From contig JAFZAP010000103.1 in NCBI GenBank assembly GCA_017557185.1, positions 1-45,530 on the forward strand: 45,530 bases of DNA, in the 5' to 3' direction. This DNA comes from Prevotella sp. GTDB taxonomy: Bacteria; Bacteroidota; Bacteroidia; Bacteroidales; Bacteroidaceae. Position numbers and translations under genes: made by a program. A model generated the notes under the pieces. The model had not been told where the DNA came from. It was given only the letters and a program-made list of their open reading frames with translations, and did not search any database. Shown here one piece after another: positions 1,051 through 45,530 of the stretch; the first letter of the stretch is position 1, and every line of letters starts with the position of its first letter.

Positions 1051-2013
1051 ATGGAAAAGTATGAGATTCAGAAGCTCCGCGACCTTCCCATTGAGGGGGT
1101 CGCAGAGCGACTTGGATTGCAGGTGGTCAGGCATAAGGCGCTCTGCCCGTTCCACGACGACCACCATGCTTCGCTGTCGTTCAGCATCCGCCGCAACACC
1201 TACCGCTGCTTCGCCTGCGGAGCCCATGGGGGCACGATAGATCTGGCGATGCGGGTCCTCGGCAAGGATTTTATGGAGGCATGCCGATGGCTAAGCCTCA
1301 CCCCCGACCCCTCTCCCATAGAGAGGGGAAGCCTCACCCCCAACCCCTCTCCCGTAGAGAGGGGAACATCTTTCGATGCAAAGCGCTATGAGCGATTCTT
1401 CGCGCGTCCTTGGCTCTCTCCAGAAGCCCGAAAGTTCCTCTTCGAGGAGCGCAAGTTAGACCCGAGGGTGGTGCGCTGGTGCCGCCTGACATCGTGGAAG
1501 GACCGACGGGAAGTGCCGTGGTTGCAGATTCCCTACTACGACCGCGAGGGCAAGTTGATAGGCGTTCAGAACCGAAACCTCGTGAAGGGCGGCTTGCCCC
1601 GCTTCCGCTTCCCACAAGGCTCGGAGTGCAGCATCTACAACCTGCCCGTGTTGAATCTGCTGCGTCCCGGCGAGGCGCTCTTCATCACCGAGGGCTGCTC
1701 CGACTGCTGGGCGATGCTCTCCGCAGGCCACAAGGCCTTCGCCATCCCCTCCGCCACCCTGCTGAAACGCAAGGATATAGAGCTACTAAAAAGCCTCACC
1801 CCCGGCCCCTCCCCCGTAGGGAGGGGAGAAATAAAAGCCTCCCCTATGGGGGGAGGTCGGGAGGGGGCTCTCTCCTTCCACATGTTCCCCGACCGCGACG
1901 AGCCCGGCGAGCGTCTCTTCCTTCAGTTGCAGCAGGTGTTGCCAAATCTGCAACACCACCAGCTGCCACCCGGCTGCAAGGACTTCAGCGAGTACTATTT
2001 GCAGACAAAATAA
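1051..2013 (+). CDS. CHC2 zinc-finger / Toprim DNA primase-like protein
   Basis: A 320-aa DnaG-like primase of the short type found in mobile or accessory cassettes. The N-terminal CHC2 zinc finger is visible as C32-P-F-H35 and C53-F-A-C56. The Toprim core shows the acidic 'FITEG' motif near residue 211, the 'PDRDEPG' DxD motif near 281 and a final 'CKDFSEYY'. The DnaG helicase-binding C-terminal domain is absent. It starts 2 bp after the DUF3987 gene, so the two probably act together in priming or replication of an element. Oddities are two in-frame REP-like insertions: SLTPDPSPIERG and SLTPNPSPVERG in tandem after the zinc finger (residues ~82-105), and a second ~27-aa insert (residues ~248-274) just before the DxD motif. 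The catalytic motifs are intact, so the gene may still be functional. Confidence 0.85.
   Translation: MEKYEIQKLRDLPIEGVAERLGLQVVRHKALCPFHDDHHASLSFSIRRNTYRCFACGAHGGTIDLAMRVLGKDFMEACRWLSLTPDPSPIERGSLTPNPSPVERGTSFDAKRYERFFARPWLSPEARKFLFEERKLDPRVVRWCRLTSWKDRREVPWLQIPYYDREGKLIGVQNRNLVKGGLPRFRFPQGSECSIYNLPVLNLLRPGEALFITEGCSDCWAMLSAGHKAFAIPSATLLKRKDIELLKSLTPGPSPVGRGEIKASPMGGGREGALSFHMFPDRDEPGERLFLQLQQVLPNLQHHQLPPGCKDFSEYYLQTK
1295..1366 (+). repeat. Tandem 36-bp REP-like palindromic repeat inside the primase gene
   Basis: Two adjacent 36-bp copies (1295-1330, 1331-1366) differ at a few positions. Each carries the hairpin CCCCTCTC-N5-GAGAGGGG after a GCCTCACCCCC lead. Because 36 bp is exactly 12 codons, the frame is kept. 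Related copies lie at 1793-1872, 2053-2130, 2731-2767, 3159-3179 and 37931-37964. Confidence 0.85.
1793..1872 (+). repeat. Inverted pair of REP-like elements inside the primase gene
   Basis: A copy of the GCCTCACCCCC...CCCCTCCCCCGTAGGGAGGGG element is followed, after a short AT-rich spacer, by a second palindromic stretch (CCTCCCCTATGGGGGGAGG). It is translated in frame as a Gly/Pro/Arg-rich insert between two Toprim motifs. Confidence 0.75.
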
Positions 2014-2052: not shown

Positions 2053-2130
2053 AGCCTACCCCGACCCTCCCGAAAGGGAGGGAGAATGGGGTGTTCCCCT
2101 CCCTACTGGGGAGGGGTTACGGGGTGGGGC
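2053..2130 (+). repeat. REP-like palindromes at the primase/HU convergent junction
   Basis: Two hairpins, CCCTCCCGAAAGGGAGGG and CCCCTCCCTACTGGGGAGGGG, lie in the 3' ends of the convergent genes. The last codons and the stop of the HU-like gene (2117-2119) are inside the repeat. The hairpins could also act as a bidirectional terminator. Confidence 0.7.
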
Positions 2131-2563
2131 TTTCCTTCTCGACTGCATTCTCAGGAGTCTCCTCCACCTGCAGATCATCGAGGAACACACGTCTGCGCTG
2201 ACCACCGCTGGCACTGGACCAGTGGGTCTCGGGCTGGAAGTTCACACGCGAACCCACCACATGCTTCGAGGCTGAGAAGTCCTTCGCGGTGTCGGCAGGC
2301 TTGGTGGCCAGACCGATCTTGAACGATCCGAAGCCATCGAGCTTCACACGGTAGGACTCCTGAAGCCAGAGCTTCATGACGTTCACCAGCTCGTCGAGCA
2401 CAGCGATGACATCCGACTTCTTCACCGACACGTTGTCCTGAATCATCTGGGCAAGGTCCTTGGTGCACTTCGGAGTCTTCGGGTAGATGGCACGGGCGTA
2501 CCACTTGCCACGAGTCGTCGACTCAGCGCGGTTGTCCTGGTAAAGACGATACTTGATTGCCAT
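2117..2563 (-). CDS. HU-like DNA-binding protein (HU-HIG family)
   Basis: A 148-aa nucleoid-type protein of the Bacteroidota HU-related class. It opens with 'MAIKYRLYQDNRAES...GKWYAR' and has the typical helical dimerisation region (KCTKDLAQMIQDNVSVKKSDVIAVLDELVNV, quoted here in part) followed by the beta-arm segment containing 'VKLDGFGSFKIGL', the signature Gly-Phe-Gly-Ser-Phe of HU/IHF proteins. The C-terminal ~35 residues are a charged extension of this family; its last residues are encoded by a REP-like repeat. HU proteins bend and compact DNA. HU-like genes of this type commonly accompany VirE/DUF3987 and primase cassettes, as here. Transcription probably starts at the promoter at 2803-2833, giving a leader of ~230 nt that holds repeats. 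Confidence 0.85.
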   Translation of the reverse strand: MAIKYRLYQDNRAESTTRGKWYARAIYPKTPKCTKDLAQMIQDNVSVKKSDVIAVLDELVNVMKLWLQESYRVKLDGFGSFKIGLATKPADTAKDFSASKHVVGSRVNFQPETHWSSASGGQRRRVFLDDLQVEETPENAVEKESPTP

Positions 2564-2950: not shown

Positions 2951-3149
2951 TTCAGAGCATTGTTCCTGTCCCTACGGAGCGCTGCTTTAGACCAAAGAGA
3001 GCACTATTCTCAACCCTACGGAGCGCTGCTTTAGACAAAAGAGAGCACTGTTCCCTACCCTACGGAGCACTGCTCCCGACCATAGAGAGCACTGCTCTAT
3101 ATACCTACGGAGTACTGCTCCCGAGGATACAGAGCAATGCTCCTGAGGA
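2951..3149 (-). repeat. 22-bp palindromic tandem array A (9 units)
   Basis: Nine head-to-tail units, eight of 22 bp and one of 23 bp, each carry a GAGC-N3-GCTC-like core (for example CGGAGCACTGCTCCCG). Units at 2973 and 3017 are nearly identical and alternate with another nearly identical pair (2995, 3039), showing a 44-bp duplication. The array lies 54 bp beyond the gldE stop, between gldE and the HU promoter. Relatives are at 9187, 19446 and 29703. Confidence 0.85.
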
Positions 3150-3158
3150 TACAAAACA

Positions 3159-3179
3159 CCCCTCCTTTTGGGGGAGGGG
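3159..3179 (-). terminator. REP-like hairpin, possible gldE terminator
   Basis: The hairpin CCCCTCC/GGAGGGG lies 24 bp after the gldE stop and is followed on the minus strand by TGTTTTG. It is a short copy of the REP-like family. The U-run is weak, so a terminator role is only possible. Confidence 0.4.
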
Positions 3180-3203
3180 CTATGGGGGATGCTGAGGATG
3201 ATT

Positions 3204-4538
3204 TTATTTGCCTGTCGTGTCCTTCGGCTTCTCGTGGATAACGACCTTGATGCGGCTGATGCGGCGTTCCTCGATGGCCATCACCTCGAAAGTGTAGTTG
3301 GCATAGTCGATCATCTCGTGGATGCTGGGGAAGTCGCCTTTCAGCTCGAGCAGCAGGCCTGCGAGCGAATCGGCATCGCCTTCGACTTCGGCAAATTCAT
3401 CGTCGGGAACATTGATGATCTTGCAGAAATCGCTCAGAAGGGTCTTTCCTTCAAAGAGATAGGTGTTGTAGTTCAACTTGGAATAAGTCTTCTCCTCCTC
3501 GTCGAACTCGTCGTTGATCTCGCCTACGATTTCCTCAAGGATGTCCTCGAGCGTGACCAAGCCGCTGGTGCCGCCAAACTCGTCGACGACAATAGCAATG
3601 TGCACCTTGCTCTCCTGGAACTCGCGCAGCAGGTCGTCGATCTTCTTCGTCTCGGGAACAAAATAAGGAGGCCGGATGAGCGTCTGCCAACGGAAATTGG
3701 AAGGCTTCGTCAGGTGTGGCAGCAAGTCCTTGATATAGAGCACGCCGCGAATGTTGTCGGTGTTGTCCTGATAGACGGGAATGCGGCTGTAGTTGTTCTC
3801 GACAACACATTGCAGCACATCGGCAAACGAGCTCTTGATGTCGAGGTCGACGATATCCTGACGGCTGGTCATCACCTCCTTGGCCGTTTCGTCGCCGAAG
3901 CGGATGATTCCCTTCAGCATCTGCTGTTCCTCGCGGATTTCGTCCTTGTCGGTCAGCTCAAGTGCCTGCTCCAAGTCGTCGACACTCAGGACGTGATTCT
4001 CGTGCTGCACCACTTTCTCGGCCAGCGCCCCACTATGCATGAGCAACGTCTCGAGCGGCCAGAACAAACGGCGCATCACCAAGATGAATCCTACGCAGCG
4101 ACGGCAATACTTCAGCGGATTCTGCCGGCTGTAGATCTTCGGCATGATTTCACCGAAGAGCAGGAGCAGGAACGTAAGGAGGATTGTGATGCAAAGGAAC
4201 TCGAGCCACGCAGCCTTGAAGTGCACCAGCGAGGCGAAGACAAAGTTGCAGAGCATGATGATGGTGACGTTCACGAAGTTGTTGGCTATCAAGATGGTAG
4301 CCAAAGTTCGTTCACTATCTTCTCGAAGCTCCTTCACATGCTGGTCGGTGGTTGTCTTTCCGTCTTCGATCTCAGCCAAATCGGTTGGGGTAAGGCTGAA
4401 GAATGCTATCTCCGAACCGCTTGCGAAACCGGAGACAAATAACAACAAAGCAGCCAATACGGCTGCTATGATCACCCCGATGGTAACCGGTTGAAATACG
4501 ACTAAGTCATTGATATTTTGTAAGCTCGAAAAGTCCAA
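3204..4538 (-). CDS. gldE: GldE-type CNNM/CorC transmembrane protein with CBS pair
   Basis: A 444-aa inner-membrane protein. An N-terminal DUF21/CNNM domain (residues ~15-190) has several hydrophobic helices, among them 'GSEIAFFSL' and 'FGEIMPKIYSR'. It is followed by a CBS pair (from ~'VMTSRQDIVDLD' to 'VVDEFGGTSGLVTLEDILEEIVGEI') and a C-terminal CorC_HlyC domain. The family includes Mg/Co transport-associated proteins. In Bacteroidota the member next to ssb is GldE, named for gliding but kept in non-gliding Bacteroidales, so its role here may be ion handling or envelope function. The only start codon that fits is TTG at 4538, 25 bp after the ssb stop; a TAA lies just upstream in frame. It is probably co-transcribed with ssb. 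Confidence 0.9.
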   Translation of the reverse strand: MDFSSLQNINDLVVFQPVTIGVIIAAVLAALLLFVSGFASGSEIAFFSLTPTDLAEIEDGKTTTDQHVKELREDSERTLATILIANNFVNVTIIMLCNFVFASLVHFKAAWLEFLCITILLTFLLLLFGEIMPKIYSRQNPLKYCRRCVGFILVMRRLFWPLETLLMHSGALAEKVVQHENHVLSVDDLEQALELTDKDEIREEQQMLKGIIRFGDETAKEVMTSRQDIVDLDIKSSFADVLQCVVENNYSRIPVYQDNTDNIRGVLYIKDLLPHLTKPSNFRWQTLIRPPYFVPETKKIDDLLREFQESKVHIAIVVDEFGGTSGLVTLEDILEEIVGEINDEFDEEEKTYSKLNYNTYLFEGKTLLSDFCKIINVPDDEFAEVEGDADSLAGLLLELKGDFPSIHEMIDYANYTFEVMAIEERRISRIKVVIHEKPKDTTGK

Positions 4539-5639: not shown

Positions 5640-5712
5640 AGCGGAAAACGGGACTCGGACCCGCGACCCCAACCTTGGCAAGGTTGTGCTCTACCAACTG
5701 AGCTATTTCCGC
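5640..5712 (-). tRNA. tRNA-Gly (GCC), copy 2
   Basis: A 73-nt cloverleaf with acceptor GCGGAAA/TTTCCGC, D-loop AGCTCAGTTGGTAGAGC, anticodon loop CTTGCCAAG (GCC) and T-arm GGGTCCGAGTCCC, with U73 as usual for tRNA-Gly. CCA is not encoded. Identical to the copy at 5990-6062. Confidence 0.97.
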
Positions 5713-5742
5713 GATAGATGAAAAACTCTAAACATTTACAAG

Positions 5743-5826
5743 TGAAGAGGAGGAGACTCGAACTCCCACGTCGCAATTGACACTACCCCCTCAAAGTAGC
5801 GCGTCTACCAATTCCGCCACCTCTCC
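5743..5826 (-). tRNA. tRNA-Leu (GAG)
   Basis: A class II tRNA of 84 nt with a long variable arm. Acceptor GGAGAGG/CCTCTTC, anticodon loop TTGAGGG (GAG) and T-arm GGAGTTCGAGTCTCC are visible. CCA is not encoded. Confidence 0.96.
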
Positions 5827-5855
5827 AACAAGTAAACATTCTGAAACTGAATGTG

Positions 5856-5937
5856 TGCCCAGAACAGGACTCGAACCTGCACGCCTCGCGGCACACGCAC
5901 CTGAAACGTGCGCGTCTACCAATTCCGCCACCTGGGC
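5856..5937 (-). tRNA. tRNA-Leu (CAG)
   Basis: A class II tRNA of 82 nt. Acceptor GCCCAGG/TTCTGGGC region, anticodon loop TTCAGGT (CAG), long variable arm and T-arm CAGGTTCGAGTCCTG are visible. It lies between tRNA-Gly and tRNA-Leu(GAG) in one operon. Confidence 0.96.
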
Positions 5938-5989
5938 AAATAGCCACCGACTAACGAATAATGTAGTCGCGTGTTGTTTCAGAATGTTG

Positions 5990-6062
5990 AGCGGAAAACG
6001 GGACTCGGACCCGCGACCCCAACCTTGGCAAGGTTGTGCTCTACCAACTGAGCTATTTCCGC
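5990..6062 (-). tRNA. tRNA-Gly (GCC), copy 1
   Basis: Identical in sequence to the copy at 5640-5712 (anticodon GCC, U73). It is the first gene of the four-tRNA operon, 65 bp downstream of the promoter at 6128-6157. Confidence 0.97.
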
Positions 6063-8192: not shown

Positions 8193-9131
8193 ATGAGTGA
8201 CATCAACTCTTATTACGTGTTCTCAGGGACGAAGACCCGCTATCTGGCAGAGAAGATCTGTGCCAGCCTGGGGTGCCCGCTTGGCAAAATGGTCATGACG
8301 AAGTTCTCTGACGGCGAGTTTGCCGTTTCCTACGAAGAATCCATTCGCGGGCGCGACATCTTCCTCGTGCAAAGCACCTTCCCGAACTCCGACAATCTGA
8401 TGGAGCTGCTCCTGATGATCGATGCTGCCAAGAGAGCGTCGGCCCGAACCATCAATGCCGTCATCCCCTACTTCGGATGGGCTCGCCAAGACCGTAAGGA
8501 CAAGCCTCGCGTGAGCATCGGAGCAAAGCTCGTGGCCGACCTGCTGAGCGTAGCTGGCGTGAACCGCGTCATCACGATGGACCTTCACGCCGACCAGATT
8601 CAGGGATTCTTCGACGTGCCTGTCGACCACTTGTATGCTTCCGGCGTACTTCTCCCCTATCTGCAGAGCCTGCGACTCGACGACCTATGCGTGGCCTCGC
8701 CCGACGTAGGCGGTTCGAAGCGAGCCAACACCTATGCCAAATACCTGGGTTGTCCGCTCGTGATGTGCAACAAGACTCGTGCCCGCGCCAACGTTGTCGC
8801 CACTATGCAGATCATCGGCGATGTGGTGGGAAAGAACGTTGTCATCATCGACGATATGGTCGATACAGCCGGCACCATCACCAAGGCTGCCGACCTGATG
8901 ATAGCAAGCGGAGCCAAGAGTGTTCGCGCCTGTGCCTCGCATTGCGTCATGAGCGGTCCGGCTTCCGACAGAGTGCAGGAATCGGCACTCGAGGAAATTG
9001 TCTTCACCGACTCTATCCCCTATACCAACCGTTGCTCGAAGGTGAAGCAGCTGTCGGTAGCCGACATGTTTGCTGAGACCATCCGCCGCGTTGTCAACAA
9101 CGAGAGCATCAGCTCGCAATATCTGGTGTAA
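8193..9131 (+). CDS. prs: Ribose-phosphate pyrophosphokinase
   Basis: A 312-aa PRPP synthetase making 5-phosphoribosyl-1-diphosphate from ribose-5-phosphate and ATP, for purine, pyrimidine, His and Trp synthesis. Visible signatures are 'FSDGEFAVSYEESIRGRDIFLVQS' (in part), 'AVIPYFGWARQDRKD', 'ITMDLHADQIQGFFDVPVDHL' (in part) and the PRPP loop 'VVIIDDMVDTAGTI'. Length is normal for class I enzymes. It is the second gene after the ThiE-like protein. The 22-bp array B starts 55 bp after the stop. Confidence 0.97.
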   Translation: MSDINSYYVFSGTKTRYLAEKICASLGCPLGKMVMTKFSDGEFAVSYEESIRGRDIFLVQSTFPNSDNLMELLLMIDAAKRASARTINAVIPYFGWARQDRKDKPRVSIGAKLVADLLSVAGVNRVITMDLHADQIQGFFDVPVDHLYASGVLLPYLQSLRLDDLCVASPDVGGSKRANTYAKYLGCPLVMCNKTRARANVVATMQIIGDVVGKNVVIIDDMVDTAGTITKAADLMIASGAKSVRACASHCVMSGPASDRVQESALEEIVFTDSIPYTNRCSKVKQLSVADMFAETIRRVVNNESISSQYLV

Positions 9132-9186: not shown

Positions 9187-9318
9187 GATGGAGCATAGCT
9201 TTGCACCTTACGGAGCATCGCTCCATTACTTACAGAGCATTGCTCCACATCATACGGAGCATTGCTCCACATCATACGGAGCATAGCTCCATAGCATACA
9301 GAGCATAGCTATAGTGTT
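9187..9318 (+). repeat. 22-bp palindromic tandem array B (6 units)
   Basis: Exactly six 22-bp units (132 bp). The consensus begins TACGGAGCATTGCTCC followed by a variable 6-bp linker; three central units are nearly identical. The core GGAGCA-T-TGCTCC can form a 5-6 bp stem. The array lies between prs and the rpoD promoter region. The rest of 9132-9506 is AT-rich and holds only the -7 box at 9425. Confidence 0.9.
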
Positions 9319-18623: not shown

Positions 18624-19442
18624 ATGCTCCTCCATCCCTGTGCAAAAGTCAACTTAGGACTCAACATCGTGTCACGCCGTCCAGACGGCTATCATAACCT
18701 TGAGACCGTCTTCTACCCCGTTCCGATCTTCGACACCCTCGAAGCAACGCCGTCTCATAGTCTCAACCTATCGACGTATCCGCCTCTCGACTGTCCACCC
18801 GACCGCAACCTTGTCGTGCGTGCCTACAAACTGCTGGCTGCCGACTACAACCTGCCACCCGTCAGCATCGAGTTGCACAAGGACATCCCCTCGCAGGCAG
18901 GAATGGGGGGAGGATCTAGCGACGGGGCCTTCATGCTTCGCCTGCTCAATGAAGAGTTTCAACTCGGCATCGACAATCGCAAACTGCAGGAATATGCCAC
19001 GAAACTGGGTGCCGACTGCCCCTTCTTCATCACCGCCGAGCCTGCCTACGCCACAGGAATCGGCGAACAGCTTGAACCCTTGGAGGACTTGCGAGAGCAA
19101 CTCCGCGACCTCTACATCGCCATCGTGAAACCGCCTGTCGCCGTGTCCACCCGCGAAGCCTATGCCGCCATCACGCCTCGCAAGCCAGAAGTCTGTTGCC
19201 GCGATGTGGTCAGGATGCCTGTCAGCGAATGGCGCAATCTGCTCACCAACGACTTCGAACCGCCGCTCTTCGCTATCCACCCGCAACTTGCCTGCATCAA
19301 GGCGAAGCTCTACGACATGGGGGCCGTCTATGCGCAGATGAGTGGTAGCGGCAGTGCCCTCTTCGGGCTATTCCATTCCGTGCCGCAGCAACTTGAACAA
19401 ACCTTCCCCGACTGCTTCACCTTCGCAGGGGTGCTGGGGTAA
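18624..19442 (+). CDS. ispE: 4-diphosphocytidyl-2-C-methyl-D-erythritol kinase
   Basis: A 272-aa GHMP kinase of the MEP isoprenoid pathway that phosphorylates CDP-methylerythritol at the 2-OH. The N-terminal substrate motif is 'CAKVNLGLNIVSRRPDGYHN', the ATP-binding glycine loop 'IPSQAGMGGGSSDGAFMLR', and the catalytic Asp lies in 'GADCPFF'. The C-terminal motif is 'YAQMSGSGSALFGLF'. Length is typical. It closes the operon with the AddAB-like genes. The 22-bp array C begins 3 bp after the stop. Confidence 0.96.
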   Translation: MLLHPCAKVNLGLNIVSRRPDGYHNLETVFYPVPIFDTLEATPSHSLNLSTYPPLDCPPDRNLVVRAYKLLAADYNLPPVSIELHKDIPSQAGMGGGSSDGAFMLRLLNEEFQLGIDNRKLQEYATKLGADCPFFITAEPAYATGIGEQLEPLEDLREQLRDLYIAIVKPPVAVSTREAYAAITPRKPEVCCRDVVRMPVSEWRNLLTNDFEPPLFAIHPQLACIKAKLYDMGAVYAQMSGSGSALFGLFHSVPQQLEQTFPDCFTFAGVLG

Positions 19443-19445
19443 GAA

Positions 19446-19599
19446 TTGCGGAGCATAGATCCTGAGGGGATGGAGCATAGCTCTAGTGCGAATGGAGCAT
19501 AGCTCTATATATTGGGGAACAGTGCTTTCGGGGCAACGGAGCACTGCTTTATATGTTGTGGAGCATAGCTCTAGAGGGAAAGGAGCATAGCTCTCGATT
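19446..19599 (+). repeat. 22-bp palindromic tandem array C (7 units)
   Basis: Exactly seven 22-bp units (154 bp) starting 3 bp after ispE. The usual core is GGAGCATAGCTCT, keeping GAGC-N3-GCTC with a G-T outer pair; two units vary (GGGGAACAGTGCTT, CGGAGCACTGCTTT). A minus-strand promoter at 19663-19693 points into it. Confidence 0.9.
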
Positions 19600-19693: not shown

Positions 19694-19810
19694 AAATGAA
19701 GGTGCGTGGCTTGCAAAAATCTTTTAAAGAATTGATTGCTTTTTGTTAAGAAATTTAAATGTGGTTATTCTCGCCAAGAAGGAGGGCAGTGTGTCCCATA
19801 TGAGTCGGGG

Positions 19811-19919
19811 CGAACAGTTCGAACAGATAACAGTTCGATTTTTGAATACCATACATCCGAACAGTTCGAACAGATAACAGTTCGATTTTTGAATACCCTA
19901 TCGCCGAACAGTTCGTAAC
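19811..19919 (+). repeat. 47-bp direct repeats with CGAACAGTTCG palindromes
   Basis: A 40-bp segment is present twice without change (19811-19850, 19858-19897), spaced by unrelated 7-bp linkers, with a third partial copy from 19905. Each opens with CGAACAGTTCG, a 5+1+5 palindrome, followed by AACAGATAACAGTT. The first 23 bp recur inverted at 20071-20093. The stretch 19600-19810 between array C and these repeats holds no supported gene. Confidence 0.85.
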
Positions 19920-19978
19920 AGTTGACTGCAGTTTTTTGCCTTCACGAACCCACAAACTCTATTTGTAAAATACTTTTA

Positions 19979-27125: not shown

Positions 27126-29696
27126 ATGACTAAATTTCTGAAACTACTCCTCGCAACACTACTCCTCCCGATGACTATTGCGGCACAAGGATGGGACGAT
27201 AGCGAATATCGCAGGATTGAAAGCAGCATTCATGAACCGCAGTTTTCCAGCCGCGACTTCCCCATCACGAAATACGGGGCAAAGTTGCAAGCAACACCAG
27301 CAAAGAACCAGAAGGCCATCAACAAGGCTATTGATGCCTGCTCGAAGGCTGGCGGAGGACATGTGGTGGTGCCCGCAGGAACGTGGACAACCGGACCTAT
27401 CACGCTGAAGAGCCACGTGAATCTCTATCTCGAGGAGGGTGCTACGCTACTCTTTGCTTTCGACACGAGTCTCTTCCCCATCGTGAAGACGCGCTGGGAG
27501 GGAATGGATCTGATGAACTACCAGCCTTGTATCTATGCATATAACGAGAAAGACATTGCTATCACGGGCAAGGGAACCATCGACGGTAACGGCTCGAATC
27601 AGACGTGGTGGCCGATGTGCGGCAAGGACACCTACGGCTGGACACCCGACACGAAGGAAAGCCAGAAGATAGGACGCCCGCTGCTCTTCCAATATGCGGA
27701 GGCAGGTACACCCATCGAGGAGCGTCGCTTCGAAGGAAAGGGACTGCGCCCACAGCTCATCAACCTCTATCAATGCGAGAACATCCTGCTGGAGGGCGTC
27801 ACCCTGTTGCGTTCACCTTTCTGGGTAGTTCATCCGCTGCTGTCGAGGAATATCACAGTACGCGGCCTGACCATCATCAACAACGGACCTAATGGCGACG
27901 GTTGTGACCCTGAGTCGTGTGAAGACGTGCTCATTGAGAACTGCCGCTTCCAGACGGGCGACGACTGCATCGCCATCAAAAGCGGACGCAACGAAGATGG
28001 ACGCCGCTGGAACCGCCCCTCGCAGAACATCATAGTTCGCAACTGTACGATGGCCGACGGGCACGGTGGTGTGGTCATAGGAAGTGAAATCTCGGGCGGT
28101 TGCCGCAACGTATTCGTCGAGAACTGCGAGATGGACTCACCCAACCTCGACCGTGTGCTGCGACTGAAGACCAACACCTGTCGCGGCGGTATCACGGAGA
28201 ATATTTATATGAGGAACGTGCGTGTGGGACAATGTCGCGAGGCCGTTATGCGCATCAACTTGGAATACGAGCCTAACGAGCCTGCCAAGCGAGGTTTCAT
28301 CCCAACGGTAAGGAACGTATATATGGAGAACGTCACTTGCCAGAAGAGCAAGTACGGAATCCTTCTCAACGGTCTGCAGGACGCCGACAACATCTATAAC
28401 ATCAACGTCAAGAACTGCCGATTCGACGGCGTGCAGAGCGAACCCGTCAGGCGAACAGGTAAGAGTCACGACCTGCACTTCGACAATCTCTTCATCAACG
28501 GTGAACTCATCTTGTTAGAGCCACCTTTCGTACAGATGCAGAACGGCAAGCCGAAGATGGCCGACGGACTACCCGTGCCCAGCTATTCCCAGTGGCTCAC
28601 GTGGTCGGAGATGATGCGTACACCCGAGCCCTACATGCTCGACTTTGCCAAGAAACCGCGCTGGAGTTATGTGATGGGCATCGAACAAGAGGCTATGCTC
28701 GACACCTATCTTGCCTATGGAAACCCCGAAATCCTGCAATATCTGAAGCAATATCCCGAGAAAATGATCGATGCTGAGGGCAATATCACGGGGTATAAGT
28801 ACGAAGATTTCAACCTCGACAACGTGCGAACAGCAAAATACATTTTCCGCATGAACCAACTGGAATCGAAAGCGAATGTAGAAAAAGCGCTGAAAACACT
28901 CTTCAGCCAGCTCGAGAAACAACCTCGAACGAAGGAGGGTGTCTGGTGGCACAAAGCGATTTATGCCAATCAGGTGTGGCTCGACGGCATCTTCATGGGC
29001 CTACCCTACTACACGCTTGCTGCTCCCCGCATGGTGAAGGCCAAGAAGGTGAAGAAATACTACGACGATGCGGTAGATCAAATCACAAAGACCGACCTGC
29101 GCACCTTCGACCCGAAGACCAACCTCTGGAAACATGCCTGGGACGAGACGCACCAGATGTTCTGGGCAGACCCCACAACGGGTCAGAGCAAGCATACCTG
29201 GGGACGCGCTCTCGGGTGGTACGTGATGGCTATGACCGAAGTTCTTGAAGCGTTGCCTGATGACTATGCGCGCCGCCAGGAGGTGATCCATTTGCTGCAG
29301 AAAGCGATGACGGAAGTCGTGAAGCATCAGGACAAGAAGACGGGTGTCTGGTATGACGTTCTCGATGTCAAGGATAATCGTAACTACTTGGAAGCCAGCT
29401 GTTCAGCGATGTTCGCTTATGTATTACTTAAAGGAGCTCGCAAGGGTTGGCTCGACGAAAGTTTTCAGCAGGCAGGTATCCGCGCTTTCAACGGAATCGT
29501 GAAGCAGTTTGTGCGTGTGAATGCCGACAAAACCATTTCACTGACCCGCTGTTGCGAGGTGTCTGGATTAGGTCCCGACAACAATCGCCGCCGCGATGGC
29601 TCGTTCGAATACTACATCTCTGAACCCATCCGCGACAACGATGCAAAGGGCGTAGGTCCCTTCATCTGGGCAGCCCTAGAAATGGAGCGGCTCTGA
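27126..29696 (+). CDS. GH28 polygalacturonase fused to GH105 unsaturated uronyl hydrolase
   Basis: An 856-aa exported two-domain pectinase. Signal peptide ~1-20 (LLLATLLLPMTIAAQ). The first half (~40-470) is a right-handed beta-helix with GH28 motifs: 'NGPNGDGCDPES' (N-x-D), 'TGDDCIAIKSG' (D-D), 'GHGGVVIGS' (G-H-G) and 'RVLRLKTN' (R-x-K). The second half (~500-856) is an alpha/alpha barrel of GH105 type, with 'QVWLDGIFMGLPYY' carrying the likely catalytic Asp, plus 'WGRALGWYVMAMTEVLE' and 'YLEASCSAMFAYVLLKGAR'. The enzyme would cut galacturonan or rhamnogalacturonan and then remove unsaturated uronic acids left by lyases. It heads the pectin locus, divergent from kdgK. Array D starts 6 bp after the stop. 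Confidence 0.92.
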   Translation: MTKFLKLLLATLLLPMTIAAQGWDDSEYRRIESSIHEPQFSSRDFPITKYGAKLQATPAKNQKAINKAIDACSKAGGGHVVVPAGTWTTGPITLKSHVNLYLEEGATLLFAFDTSLFPIVKTRWEGMDLMNYQPCIYAYNEKDIAITGKGTIDGNGSNQTWWPMCGKDTYGWTPDTKESQKIGRPLLFQYAEAGTPIEERRFEGKGLRPQLINLYQCENILLEGVTLLRSPFWVVHPLLSRNITVRGLTIINNGPNGDGCDPESCEDVLIENCRFQTGDDCIAIKSGRNEDGRRWNRPSQNIIVRNCTMADGHGGVVIGSEISGGCRNVFVENCEMDSPNLDRVLRLKTNTCRGGITENIYMRNVRVGQCREAVMRINLEYEPNEPAKRGFIPTVRNVYMENVTCQKSKYGILLNGLQDADNIYNINVKNCRFDGVQSEPVRRTGKSHDLHFDNLFINGELILLEPPFVQMQNGKPKMADGLPVPSYSQWLTWSEMMRTPEPYMLDFAKKPRWSYVMGIEQEAMLDTYLAYGNPEILQYLKQYPEKMIDAEGNITGYKYEDFNLDNVRTAKYIFRMNQLESKANVEKALKTLFSQLEKQPRTKEGVWWHKAIYANQVWLDGIFMGLPYYTLAAPRMVKAKKVKKYYDDAVDQITKTDLRTFDPKTNLWKHAWDETHQMFWADPTTGQSKHTWGRALGWYVMAMTEVLEALPDDYARRQEVIHLLQKAMTEVVKHQDKKTGVWYDVLDVKDNRNYLEASCSAMFAYVLLKGARKGWLDESFQQAGIRAFNGIVKQFVRVNADKTISLTRCCEVSGLGPDNNRRRDGSFEYYISEPIRDNDAKGVGPFIWAALEMERL

Positions 29697-29702
29697 GAGT
29701 CA

Positions 29703-29812
29703 ACTGGAGCAGTGCTCCGTTAGTTACAGAACATTGCTCCGTTTGTTACAGAGCATTGCTCCATAGGATACAGAGCATTACTCCGTAAAGTATAGAGCAT
29801 TGCTCCGTACAT
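29703..29812 (+). repeat. 22-bp palindromic tandem array D (5 units)
   Basis: Exactly five 22-bp units (110 bp) starting 6 bp after the pectinase stop and ending before the promoter at 29851. Most units begin TACAGAGCATTGCTCC. Same family and period as arrays at 2951, 9187 and 19446. Confidence 0.9.
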
Positions 29813-39595: not shown

Positions 39596-41953
39596 TCAAT
39601 GCCACATTCCTCTGTTACTATACCTTAATGTGACTTTGTGACTTTGTGACATTGTGACTTTGTCTATTTTGTCTACTTTTTGCCAATGTTTGGAATCGAC
39701 CTTCTTGATCCAGCCTTCCTTACACCAGCGATAGATAATGGTATGCAGGGACTTATTACTACATAAACCCGCTTTCAGTTCTCTAAGATCATCAAGATTG
39801 AATTTGACTGCTAATTGGTCGAAAATCGAATTGTTGGCACCATAGTGCTGGCATTCCTCACGTGCTTCCACATACGACTTCTCCAAGGTTGCGCCAAAAG
39901 CCTTGATTTGCTCTTCCATGCAATACTGTGCCATCAGCAAGGCGAAGTCAATGGTCGCCTTCGATTCCCTGTTGTCGGGGAGACATTCCTCGTTTGAGGA
40001 AGCAACAGGCATCGACGACAGCAGATGATGAATCACTCCACAGCGGAAACCAATCACGGCAGCACGCTTGCGATAGACATCCTTCACCCTGTCGAAGTCC
40101 TTGGCAGCCTCCACGCGCTTCTCTTCCACCCATTTCTCGATGGCTCGCCTCAGGCGAGGCGTGTCCACAAAGCCCTTGTAGGCTCTGAGCTTGGTCACCG
40201 CCTCCTGAATCCTTGCCTCTTCTTCCTCAGAGCGCTTGCCAAACTTAGGCATCTTCGAGAATGAAGCGTCGGGCATTTCCGAAGGCAGAACTCTCGACGA
40301 AAGGCCGTTCTCGACATTATCCTGCTTGAAGCACTTCCTAAGGGCTCCGTCGGTGCCAAGGATCGTCCAATTATACCCTACCTTTACAACGCCCGACTCA
40401 GCAGCATCGGAGTTGTAATCCTGACCCCATTCGCCCTGGTCGAACCCCAGACGATAGATGTCATACTTCGCACTCCAGGAACCTGCACCATTGGTCTTGC
40501 GCAGGGTGTCCAGTTCCTCGCAAAAGCTGTACAGGGTATGTCCCTGAGCATTCTTTAAGCGCTTCAGAAGCGTCGAACAGGAAATGGTCACAGGCACCGA
40601 GCGAATCAGCACATGAGGGTCGTCAGGGGCCTTCTCGTTGGCCTTGCGCGCTTTCTTCTTGCTCTTCCATTCCTCTTCTATCCGTCGTGCTTCGGAATCC
40701 TCTTCGTCAAACTGCCGCTTCCAGATGTCGACGGCATTCTTGCACACAGTCTTTCCTGAAGCTTGCTCACCGCGTATGAGCGCCATCAACCCGAGTTTCT
40801 GCCTGTTCCCGTCGCAGTATTCCACCTCAATACCATCGGCATAGGCGCCGGCAATGGGCAGGACCGAGCAGATGACGGGAAGATACATCGACTGGGGGAC
40901 ACCCTTCAGCGACTCTTTCAAGCCGATGGGGAGTTTGTTCCTTTGAAGGTCGAACGTTGATGCTTGAACATCTTTCGCGTCTTCTGCGTCTTCCAACTCG
41001 TCACCCTCATCGTCAACGCCCACGTTCCTGAGAGCCTGCTGCATCCGCTTGGGAATGCCCTTCAGGAACTCGAAGCCCTGCGCACTCTTCACCGTCTGAG
41101 CCACGTTCTCACCACGCTCCTTGATGATTTCCTGCACGAAGGGTGTGTCGCGCAGGATGCTCTCGATGAGGGCTCCGTCGTTGTCGGTGATGTAGCGCAG
41201 GTGGTCGGCAAGAATCAAGGAGGTGCGGTGGCGGTCGCCAGCCTTCACCTGCTTTCCGTCGAGCCAGGCATCAACAATCTTGCTGTAGGGGATGCCGTGA
41301 TACGAAGCCTCACCCCCCACGGTAGGGGCAGACCCCTGTGTCTGCCCGAACAATAACGAATCCCCCTCCCCCGATGGCGGGCAGACACGGGAGTCTGCCC
41401 CTACGGACTCTCCAGCGGGCATGGGTGTCCACAACTTGTCATTAATATACTTCGTGTGGTCCTCCGTGACCATATAGATGCACCTCGAGACATCCTTCAC
41501 CGCCTTGTCTGGCTCGAAGCCCGTCACTTCCTTCATGAGTTCCTGAGCCTCGCCCGCCGACATGCCTTCTGGCAACTCCACCAGCACATGGGTACCACCA
41601 CGCACGCTCTCCTCAACGAGCAACACCGTCAGAGCCCCAGCATTTGATTTTTCATTTTTCACTTTTAATTTCGATAGAATATCGATGGTATGTCCCTTCT
41701 CGTCGAAATCAAGCATCAGGCGGTTCAAGGGCTTCACGGCATCGGCTATTGCCCTGTGGTTGTTCGCAAACTCCGCGCAATGAGGCGTCCACACCGGCAA
41801 ACGCTGCTTCAGCTGTTCTTGGCCATTCTTGATGCGCACACACATTTCCTTGAGCCAAGGTTCGCGACGCAACTGCTCCCAATCTTCTCGTGTCGCAGGA
41901 AGGCAAGGGGCGCCATACCCCTTACCTATACATGTAAAAAAATTGTTGTTCAT
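39596..41953 (-). CDS. VirE N-terminal / DUF3987 helicase-primase-like protein
   Basis: A ~785-aa cytoplasmic protein. The ATG at 41953 overlaps the stop of the upstream small gene (ATGA), so it is preferred to the TTG at 41959. The N-terminal VirE/BT4734-like region (~20-180) has 'LNRLMLDFDEKGH' and 'VSRCIYMVTEDHTKYINDKL'. The DUF3987 P-loop domain has Walker A 'IRGEQASGKTVCK' (~395) and an acidic 'YSFCEELDTL' stretch. The C-terminus resembles a winged helix. These proteins occur in Bacteroidales cassettes with HU-like genes and may be element-borne helicase-primases. Three in-frame insertions are seen: 'KLKVKNEKSNAG' (~95-106), a REPIN-encoded segment (~184-212), and an octapeptide-periodic tail 'KVTMSQSHKVTL' from an 8-bp repeat. 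Confidence 0.85.
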   Translation of the reverse strand: MNNNFFTCIGKGYGAPCLPATREDWEQLRREPWLKEMCVRIKNGQEQLKQRLPVWTPHCAEFANNHRAIADAVKPLNRLMLDFDEKGHTIDILSKLKVKNEKSNAGALTVLLVEESVRGGTHVLVELPEGMSAGEAQELMKEVTGFEPDKAVKDVSRCIYMVTEDHTKYINDKLWTPMPAGESVGADSRVCPPSGEGDSLLFGQTQGSAPTVGGEASYHGIPYSKIVDAWLDGKQVKAGDRHRTSLILADHLRYITDNDGALIESILRDTPFVQEIIKERGENVAQTVKSAQGFEFLKGIPKRMQQALRNVGVDDEGDELEDAEDAKDVQASTFDLQRNKLPIGLKESLKGVPQSMYLPVICSVLPIAGAYADGIEVEYCDGNRQKLGLMALIRGEQASGKTVCKNAVDIWKRQFDEEDSEARRIEEEWKSKKKARKANEKAPDDPHVLIRSVPVTISCSTLLKRLKNAQGHTLYSFCEELDTLRKTNGAGSWSAKYDIYRLGFDQGEWGQDYNSDAAESGVVKVGYNWTILGTDGALRKCFKQDNVENGLSSRVLPSEMPDASFSKMPKFGKRSEEEEARIQEAVTKLRAYKGFVDTPRLRRAIEKWVEEKRVEAAKDFDRVKDVYRKRAAVIGFRCGVIHHLLSSMPVASSNEECLPDNRESKATIDFALLMAQYCMEEQIKAFGATLEKSYVEAREECQHYGANNSIFDQLAVKFNLDDLRELKAGLCSNKSLHTIIYRWCKEGWIKKVDSKHWQKVDKIDKVTMSQSHKVTLRYSNRGMWH
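39623..39665 (-). repeat. 8-bp GTGACTTT tandem repeat at the DUF3987 3' end
   Basis: About four units of GTGACTTT/GTGACATT in a row. The repeat is translated as part of the C-terminus. Copies occur at 45303-45344 (opposite orientation) and 45462-45496. Confidence 0.8.
41322..41404. repeat. REPIN (inverted REP pair) inside the VirE/DUF3987 gene
   Basis: GTAGGGGCAGAC...GTCTGCCC (41322-41348) faces its inverted partner GGGCAGAC...GTCTGCCCCTAC (41379-41404). Each half is a hairpin with GTAG at the foot, the hallmark of REP elements. It is translated in frame as a ~28-aa insert. Confidence 0.8.
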
Positions 41954-44158: not shown

Positions 44159-45193
44159 CTAGCCTTCACAAATCATCCTGGCCATATCGTTGAGCGAGAG
44201 GCACTGGGTGCGGCTGATGGTGAGGCGTTCGTTGTGGTGCTCCCAGGGAGCCAAGAGCAGCAGCTGGCCACGCTGGCAGGCTTCCATGCGCTTGCCGCCG
44301 GGCTTTGCCAAGTCAGTAAAACCGTTCTCCTGCAGGATGATGAGGGGGAGGCCTTCGTCGAAGGCTGCTCGCATGACTTGCTTCTCGCCCTTTGAGATAC
44401 TGGGCGACACCAGCACGGCTCCCCGTCGGGCTTGCTGTAGCCACCATGCCTGCTTCTCGGCAATCTCTTCATCGGTGAGGCGGCGGGAGCATTGCACCTG
44501 AAGCCGTACGGGGCGGTCGAGGAGGAAGCGGTTGCCGATGGCTGAGAACTGCTGGGGGCCTACCATGAGCCCTCGCTGTACGCGGAAGAGATCGGGGTGC
44601 TCGCGCTTCATCAAAAGGCGGCGCGGGTTGTCGCGCAGGTAGGTGAGCCAGCGCTCCAGCTGGCCTTGGCGCAGCAGCAGCTTGTCGTTGTAGCCGGGAG
44701 CGAAGAGCAGGCCGTGGTAGCGGTCGTTCTGTCTTGTTTGTTGCTGTTCTGTTTTTTGCGACTGAGTCGCAACAGACTGAACGGAGGGTGACAGCTCCCA
44801 ATAGGCGCGGTTGCAACCAGTTTTGAAGCCACGGATAATGCGGCTCAAGTCTTTCTCCATCTTTTCCTTCACAAAGAGGATGCCATGCATGTGGTCAGGC
44901 ATCATCTGCAGGGCAAGGATCTCCACCTGTGGATAGTAGGCAGGAATCCCCCACCATTCGTCGGCTACCCGCTGCCCCAGCTCGCTGAGATCTGTCCTCG
45001 GTGCCTCCTCGCTGCCTTCGGGAGCATCGCTGTGGCCAACCACCTTGCCGAAGAGCGGGAGACGGCTCTCAGTGACCATCGTCACCATGTAGATCTGGCG
45101 CTCCGTGTAGTCGTGACCCACACAGCGCCGCAGCATCGACGGCTTCTTCTCGCCAGCAAAAGCTTTCTGGCTCTCGTAGACTTCGCGTTTCAT
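44159..45193 (-). CDS. RAYT-type Y1 transposase with an extra C-terminal domain
   Basis: A 344-aa single-strand transposase of the IS200-like/REP-associated class. The HUH motif is 'PDHMHGILFV' (H101, H103). The candidate nucleophile is Y168 in 'APGYNDKLLLRQGQLERWLTYL' (in part), followed by 'YLRDNPRRLLMKREHPDLF', the usual RAYT end. A Gln/Ser-rich loop (~137-157) separates the two. Residues ~205-344 form an additional domain, 'GAVLVSPSISKGEKQVMRAA' to 'FDEGLPLIILQENGF' and 'QLLLLAPWEHHNERLTISRT', with the look of a Rossmann/SLOG (DprA-like) fold. No IS-type terminal sequences are seen around it, so it is probably a resident RAYT. It has its own promoter (45213-45242) and terminator. Confidence 0.85.
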   Translation of the reverse strand: MKREVYESQKAFAGEKKPSMLRRCVGHDYTERQIYMVTMVTESRLPLFGKVVGHSDAPEGSEEAPRTDLSELGQRVADEWWGIPAYYPQVEILALQMMPDHMHGILFVKEKMEKDLSRIIRGFKTGCNRAYWELSPSVQSVATQSQKTEQQQTRQNDRYHGLLFAPGYNDKLLLRQGQLERWLTYLRDNPRRLLMKREHPDLFRVQRGLMVGPQQFSAIGNRFLLDRPVRLQVQCSRRLTDEEIAEKQAWWLQQARRGAVLVSPSISKGEKQVMRAAFDEGLPLIILQENGFTDLAKPGGKRMEACQRGQLLLLAPWEHHNERLTISRTQCLSLNDMARMICEG

Positions 45194-45302: not shown

Positions 45303-45344
45303 GACAAAGTCACATTGTCACATTATCACAAAGTCACATTAAGG
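45303..45344 (+). repeat. 8-bp GTCACAAA tandem repeat, plus orientation
   Basis: Units of AAAGTCAC/ATTGTCAC/TATCACAA in a row, the reverse complement of the repeat at the DUF3987 3' end. It forms an inverted pair with 45462-45496. Confidence 0.75.
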
Positions 45345-45530
45345 ACACTCCCTACTCAGCACAGAGGAAGAGTAAGAATAATTAATGTATATATATTGTA
45401 TAATTATAATATTATATTAATAAATATAACCCCCTATCGGGGGAGGGCGCACTCAAACACGCTTAATGTGACTTTGTGATATTGTGACTTTGTGACTCCA
45501 CATGGTCTAGGGACGGTGCTCCTCTTGGTC
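45345..45530. other. Gene-free right edge with inverted repeats
   Basis: No supported gene. It holds an AT-rich stretch (~45375-45428), a C/G-rich hairpin CCCCCTATCGGGGG (45430-45443) of REP-like type, and the second GTGACTTT repeat (45462-45496). The mixture resembles the 3' flank of a further VirE/DUF3987-type gene lying beyond the window. Confidence 0.5.
45462..45496 (-). repeat. 8-bp GTGACTTT tandem repeat, minus orientation
   Basis: AATGTGACTTTGTGATATTG followed by TGACTTTGTGAC: the same repeat and orientation as at 39623-39665. Confidence 0.75.

Follow-up and report, generated by a model that had tools for sequence, protein, structure and literature searches.

Intergenic arrays of 22-bp palindromic units in a Prevotella genome and their possible role as phased docking sites on DNA

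We analyzed a stretch of 45,530 nt (the window) from the genome of a Prevotella sp., referred to here as G000, which belongs to a group of bacteria abundant in the gut and rumen. Genes were called with our own hexamer caller, which trimmed some starts and gave some spurious small genes (e.g. 19755-19856, beside the array 3' of ispE). The names given to the genes in the initial annotation were upheld: gldE, prs and ispE passed curated cut-offs, and the gene named pectinase was found to carry GH28 and GH88 domains, with no NCBIfam model at cut-off (Table 1). Among Rfam models at the gathering threshold, we detected only four tRNAs in the window, clustered at 5640-6062 on the minus strand.

Table 1. 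Positions of the arrays, genes and other elements described in the text (window coordinates, unless another locus is given)
Feature	Position	Strand	Location or model
22-bp dyad array, 9 units	2955..3142		flanked by two minus-strand genes, gldE and the HU-HIG gene
22-bp dyad array, 6 units	9191..9311		3' of prs, ahead of a sigma-70-type factor gene; the array with which this study is concerned
22-bp dyad array, 7 units	19451..19593		3' of ispE
22-bp dyad array, 5 clear units	29707..29805		3' of the GH28/GH88 gene
HU-HIG DNA-binding protein gene	2117..2563	-	adjoins the first array; PF18291
Terminator-like hairpin	3158..3180	-	between the gldE stop codon and its array
gldE	3204..4538	-	TIGR03520, above cut-off
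prs, ribose-phosphate diphosphokinase	8193..9131	+	TIGR01251 and NF002320, above cut-off
ispE	18624..19442	+	TIGR00154, above cut-off
GH28/GH88 gene (pectinase)	27126..29696	+	PF00295 and PF07470
RAYT-like protein	44159-45193	-	NF047646, E 1.3e-10, below cut-off; Y1_Tnp weak
AT-rich 22-bp dyad blocks, G000	L036:982-1128, L048:1438-1578, six more		
AT-rich 22-bp dyad block, G348	L326:13604-13754		
REP-like palindromes at Y1_Tnp matches	L033 ~8620-8660, ~9240-9270; L199 ~1380-1410, ~1750-1780		

An independent scan returned the four arrays at the places initially reported, with 9, 6, 7 and 5 units. Each unit reads roughly RGAGC-NNN-GCTCY, an imperfect palindrome, and is completed by approximately 9 variable bases which tend to RTA-NNN-TAY and so form a second, weaker dyad between units. 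All steps in the four arrays were 22 bp, apart from one 23-bp step in the first array. The arrays had been described as exact; with the exception of that step this was true of the spacing, but not of the palindromes, as an exact GAGC-N3-GCTC core was present in 14 of 27 units (3 of 9 at gldE, 4 of 6 at prs, 4 of 7 at ispE and 3 of 5 at the pectinase gene). Both the register and the palindromic character of the units bore out the proposed period of two helical turns with dyads, and the statement that the arrays are not CRISPR also stood, since each 22-bp unit holds approximately 9 variable bases and long spacers are absent. The first core lay 62 bp from the stop codon of gldE, 59 bp from that of prs, 8 bp from that of ispE and approximately 10 bp from that of the pectinase gene. 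One extra unit with 2 mismatches was detected at 29685, where it overlaps the stop codon of the pectinase gene, and this is probably a chance match. Repeats of other types were also seen in the window: downstream of the ispE array, a 47-bp tandem repeat that includes a CGAACAGTTCG palindrome (19811-19921), a 36-bp repeat with a C-rich hairpin that resembles the terminator-like hairpin 3' of gldE (1293-1366), and 8-bp TGTGACTT/GTCACATT microsatellites (39629-39663, 45309-45340, 45467-45497).

The genome-wide search suggested in the initial annotation was performed. Two cores in register gave 93 forward matches in the genome, versus 0 for the reversed pattern, and random sequence from a first-order Markov model of the 781 kb scanned contained one two-unit array and none longer. 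A chance origin of the arrays is excluded. For the survey of the family, we used 61 stretches of G000 (1,169 kb) and counted arrays of at least 3 units. The stretches were mostly chosen on array-bearing contigs, which biases the density but should not bias the position relative to genes. We found 49 arrays, of which 36 had 5 to 7 units. None of the 49 was located inside a called gene, though 85% of the sequence is coding. Both neighbours were known for 45 arrays; 20 of these were placed between convergent, 18 between co-directional and 7 between divergent genes. The corresponding numbers for 484 intergenic regions of at least 50 bp were 67, 325 and 92, which means that convergent sites were enriched among arrays (20/45 versus 67/484, p = 6e-7, with arrays treated as independent). 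The family is dispersed over the genome. Its placement at operon 3' ends, as initially proposed, holds as a bias to convergent intergenic sites but not as a rule, given the divergent cases.

We wanted to compare the stability of the 22-bp register with that of the sequence. Consecutive exact cores not more than 140 bp apart (n = 118) were separated by 22, 44 or 66 bp in 109 cases and by one base more in the remaining 9. At the same time, the spacers of neighbouring units differed at 3.9 of 10 positions, and those of units from different arrays at 5.8 of 10. Between G000 and its close relative G348, non-array noncoding DNA had 81 indels per 730 substitutions, while the aligned arrays had 0 indels per 40 substitutions, in just 172 bases. 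Spacing outlasts sequence. Homogenisation inside each array is another way in which the period could be kept, and therefore these data support, but do not prove, selection on spacing.

The exact GAGC pattern was present in 10 of 398 genomes of the genus, G000 included. G348 had 31 forward matches, compared with the 93 of G000, and the other eight genomes had 0 to 3 on either strand. At orthologous places, 22-bp arrays follow ispE in G000, G348 and G227, and gldE is followed by one in G000 and G071. Within 420 bp of the stop codon, no array was found at gldE in G348, G223, G227 and G006, or at ispE in G071 and G223. About three worn units remain at prs in G348, as judged by eye. Among 19 arrays of G348, 3 could be compared with G000 by both flanks; at 2 of these places the array was present in G000 and at 1 it was missing. 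Some arrays thus occupy orthologous places across species and others do not.

Arrays with the same period but other units were seen elsewhere in the genus. In 476 kb sampled by place from 18 other genomes of the genus, 13 of 31 repeat segments had a lag of 22 or 44; these included several unrelated units, at least one of them GAGC-like. The proportion was 67/121 in G000, 1/72 in other phyla (681 kb) and 0/4 in other Bacteroidales (272 kb, 20 genomes), where one genome had two segments at lag 23. G006 had a family of its own, AAAC-N4-GTTT, with 11 forward matches and 0 in seven other genomes tested. Dyad symmetry (p < 0.05) was detected in 10 of 15 period-22 arrays of congeners (the 13 taken by place and 2 beside prs), 43 of 66 of G000 and 12 of 18 of G348. 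Among arrays of other periods it was detected in 5/57 in other phyla, 11/44 in G000, 3/14 in G348, 7/11 and 0/3 in two sets from the genus and 2/4 in other Bacteroidales, so that palindromy is enriched in period 22 and not confined to it. The arrays of G000 represent the form that, in one lineage, is taken by a class of intergenic elements found more widely in the genus. As congeners keep the 22-base spacing with other letters, the spacing itself seems to matter.

A second, AT-rich 22-bp dyad unit occurs in G000 as blocks, six or seven units long, that lie within or next to arrays of the GAGC type. Among the 398 genomes it was abundant only in G000 and G348 (at least 172 forward matches each), with 2 to 5 matches in five others. 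For six of nine AT-rich blocks, the phase of the GAGC-like units on the two sides was compared by eye, and it agreed. The blocks may share one founder, in which case the agreement in phase may count as one event. A third AT-rich unit, of the GTAATATAT type, was noticed at L025:17040 and L412 ~958. Further, 41-bp tandem arrays with units resembling intrinsic terminators (a hairpin and a T run) were noticed in genome G100 (L338:16012-16192 and L339:10939-11337).

The explanation we favour, tentatively and at somewhat under an even chance, is that the arrays may be phased docking sites for a protein on DNA at the borders of transcription units. In this reading an array would work at the DNA level: its imperfect palindromes, about six of them head to tail with a 22-bp period and a weaker dyad in each gap, would present a protein with docking sites at even intervals of approximately two helical turns. 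The predicted reader is a dimeric DNA-binding protein. By coating the border between two transcription units, or wrapping it, this protein could separate the neighbours or absorb supercoiling, as was proposed for BIMEs. Several observations point in this direction: the register is kept in spite of spacer drift (109 of 118 cores at multiples of 22, 0 indels per 40 substitutions), the arrays lie outside genes and often between convergent ones (20/45), congeners have 22-bp arrays of other units with dyad symmetry, some arrays occupy orthologous places, AT-rich blocks continue the phase of GAGC-type units, and RNA folding is without strand asymmetry (see below). There are also observations that count against docking sites. 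Arrays come and go between species, homogenisation could keep the period, 7 of 45 arrays are divergent, arrays of other periods can also be palindromic, and convergent genes which abut arrays are short of terminators, which fits a terminator role.

A broader form of the docking-site reading, to which we assign a low probability, is that of a genus-wide class in which the 22-bp spacing, with dyads approximately every 11 bp, would be the conserved signal, the sequence would be free to differ between lineages, composite arrays would keep phase and a family of DNA-binding proteins would read the arrays. HU-HIG proteins are candidates for such a binder, although a weak lead; the first array lies beside an HU-HIG gene. 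There were 15 PF18291 matches in G000; we viewed 7 of the loci, and 4 of these 7 had been chosen partly for their arrays. Among the three loci picked blind, one had an AT-rich 22-bp array of at least 3 units and two had isolated or worn units. In a comparison of 8 genomes with small array samples, we counted 15, 15, 13, 19, 23 and 11 HU-HIG matches in genomes with 22-bp arrays, and 4 and 7 where there was none or one; the model also matched in 9 of 14 control genomes, and therefore these counts include ordinary HU. Pieces of PF18291 genes were often found at contig ends (C7, C19 and C27 in G000; C15, C16, C28 and C30 in G348), as if near-identical copies had broken the assembly. If selection acts on the register, the arrays would be a sequence-flexible chromosome code. 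Each genome offers dozens of them, in several sequences, as natural replicates in which the effects of phased dyads on convergent transcription could be examined.

We also considered gyrase-like wrapping. Binding by gyrase, IHF or Pol I is one of the marks of REP/BIME elements. According to the available part of PMC6379681, gyrase cleaves a subset of BIMEs and has a motif of approximately 130 bp with a GC periodicity of 10.75 bp. Our arrays fit the motif in length. In periodicity only the AT-rich block fits (10.75 to 11 bp), while GAGC arrays peak at 7.3 bp and not at 11 bp; gyrase-like wrapping is therefore not supported for the latter.

The main rival to docking sites, a real possibility that we nevertheless hold to be the less probable of the two, is a minisatellite of a neutral or selfish kind. 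Its palindromic units would multiply by slippage or recombination, become homogenised within an array, be copied occasionally to other places and survive only where they are harmless, outside genes and promoters. This would explain why neighbouring spacers resemble each other more than spacers of different arrays, and why arrays are gained and lost between species. Also in its favour, outer units are often worn while inner units are clean, as judged by eye, and some arrays are copies of others; the clearest pairs are the window array at 2955 with L061, L036 with L300, and L042 with L053. A minisatellite, however, does not explain why unrelated units have a common period of 22 rather than 20, 21, 23 or 24, nor why length changes are rare amid sequence drift.

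An unlikely alternative is that the arrays act in RNA, as tandem hairpins which end transcription or protect or process the 3' ends of mRNA. The prs array did fold strongly (z = -6.8 as RNA, z = -5.3 as DNA), as is expected of palindromic tandems. For elements that act in the transcript, better folding of the sense strand is expected, but this strand was more stable than the antisense strand in just 8 of 18 co-directional arrays (p = 0.77). The outer hairpin pair in co-directional arrays was A-C in 36 units and G-T in 23, the reverse of the preference expected from G-U pairing in a transcript, and one of the unit families is AT-rich. We initially read the outer-pair counts as avoidance of Watson-Crick pairs (p = 7e-8); a better explanation of them is that the unit is asymmetric and occurs in both orientations.

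The analysis of terminators gave a mixed picture. The initial annotation had noted that all four window genes lack a strong terminator, and this was the case 3' of prs, ispE and the pectinase gene, where by eye a T tract directly after the last unit was absent as well. It is doubtful for gldE, which is followed by a terminator-like hairpin on the minus strand (3180-3158); one such hairpin was found in the stretch scanned versus 1.1 expected by chance from shuffles. A strong intrinsic terminator was present at 22 of the 58 gene 3' ends that face an array, and it preceded the array in 19 of these 22, though arrays within 60 bp of the stop codon leave little room for this; where the array started more than 60 bp from the stop codon, the terminator came before it in 19 of 20. 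As there is no folding advantage of the sense strand and existing terminators mostly precede the arrays, termination, which had been suggested earlier, is not the best general reading. One result leans towards it. Where an array lay within 60 bp of the stop codon of a convergent gene, a terminator was present in 1 of 16 cases, compared with 44 of 98 array-free convergent 3' ends (p = 0.004), but for co-directional genes the difference was not seen (1/7 versus 63/282, p = 1). Convergent arrays near a stop codon either take over the border or settle only where no terminator is displaced. In convergent pairs we also had the impression, by eye, that a terminator is present on one side only.

We find it very improbable that the arrays are a mobile element (a MITE of the BrickBuilt type, or a REP moved by a RAYT transposase), for although the family is dispersed, some arrays are copies, BrickBuilt has 23-nt tandem units and three RAYT-like genes or fragments are present in the genome (one in the window), several arrays lie at orthologous places and no common leader, tail or end repeat was found. 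A comparison of the flanks of 57 arrays (600 bp) yielded 66 local matches, none common to most arrays, and a mobile element with shared ends was rejected on this basis.

BrickBuilt is the nearest described system that we found. As far as the available text of PMC4596501 goes, it is a MITE or minisatellite of Porphyromonas gingivalis, with intergenic imperfect 23-nt tandem units at 19 places and leader and tail segments carrying IS5-like terminal inverted repeats; direct repeats of 41, 23 and 22 nt are mentioned for strain W83. Compared by this description only, our arrays are similar in that they come from the same order and are intergenic, imperfect and tandem, and they differ in the period of 22 with isolated 23-bp steps, in the palindromic units and in that shared ends were not found. 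Plasmid iterons are direct repeats of approximately 22 bp which all face the same side of the helix. The arrays resemble them in this respect but occupy dozens of chromosomal sites and have palindromic units. In the literature searched by title and abstract, mostly outside subscription journals, we found no description of such arrays in Prevotella; the accessible part of PMC12306157 does not mention Prevotella and that of PMC5771137 holds nothing on such arrays. With the present results, the initial observation widens to a lineage-specific member of a genus class of 22-bp dyad arrays.

REP and BIME elements, in the portions of PMC3733652 and PMC6379681 available, are extragenic palindromes which are often clustered and for the most part have co-directional or convergent genes as neighbours. 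A GTAG or CGTC tag marks REPs, those with GTAG are tied to RAYT genes (PMC3733652, PMC6379681), and CGTC repeats were reported in Bacteroidetes (PMC3733652, in the part available). The arrays are likewise extragenic and enriched between convergent genes, but they have no fixed GTAG or CGTC tag and are not beside RAYT-like genes. For the exact cores of the 49 arrays, counted on both strands, 23 of 332 core ends were followed by GTAG and 3 by CGTC at the best of three offsets, and there were no GAGC arrays within a few hundred bases on each side of the three RAYT-like genes or fragments. A RAYT/REP system was therefore rejected as the carrier of the arrays. The other two Y1_Tnp matches are flanked by REP-like palindromes of the GTAGGGGCAGAC type and the CACCCCTTCGGGGT type, as seen by eye, and therefore the genome may also harbour a distinct REP system.
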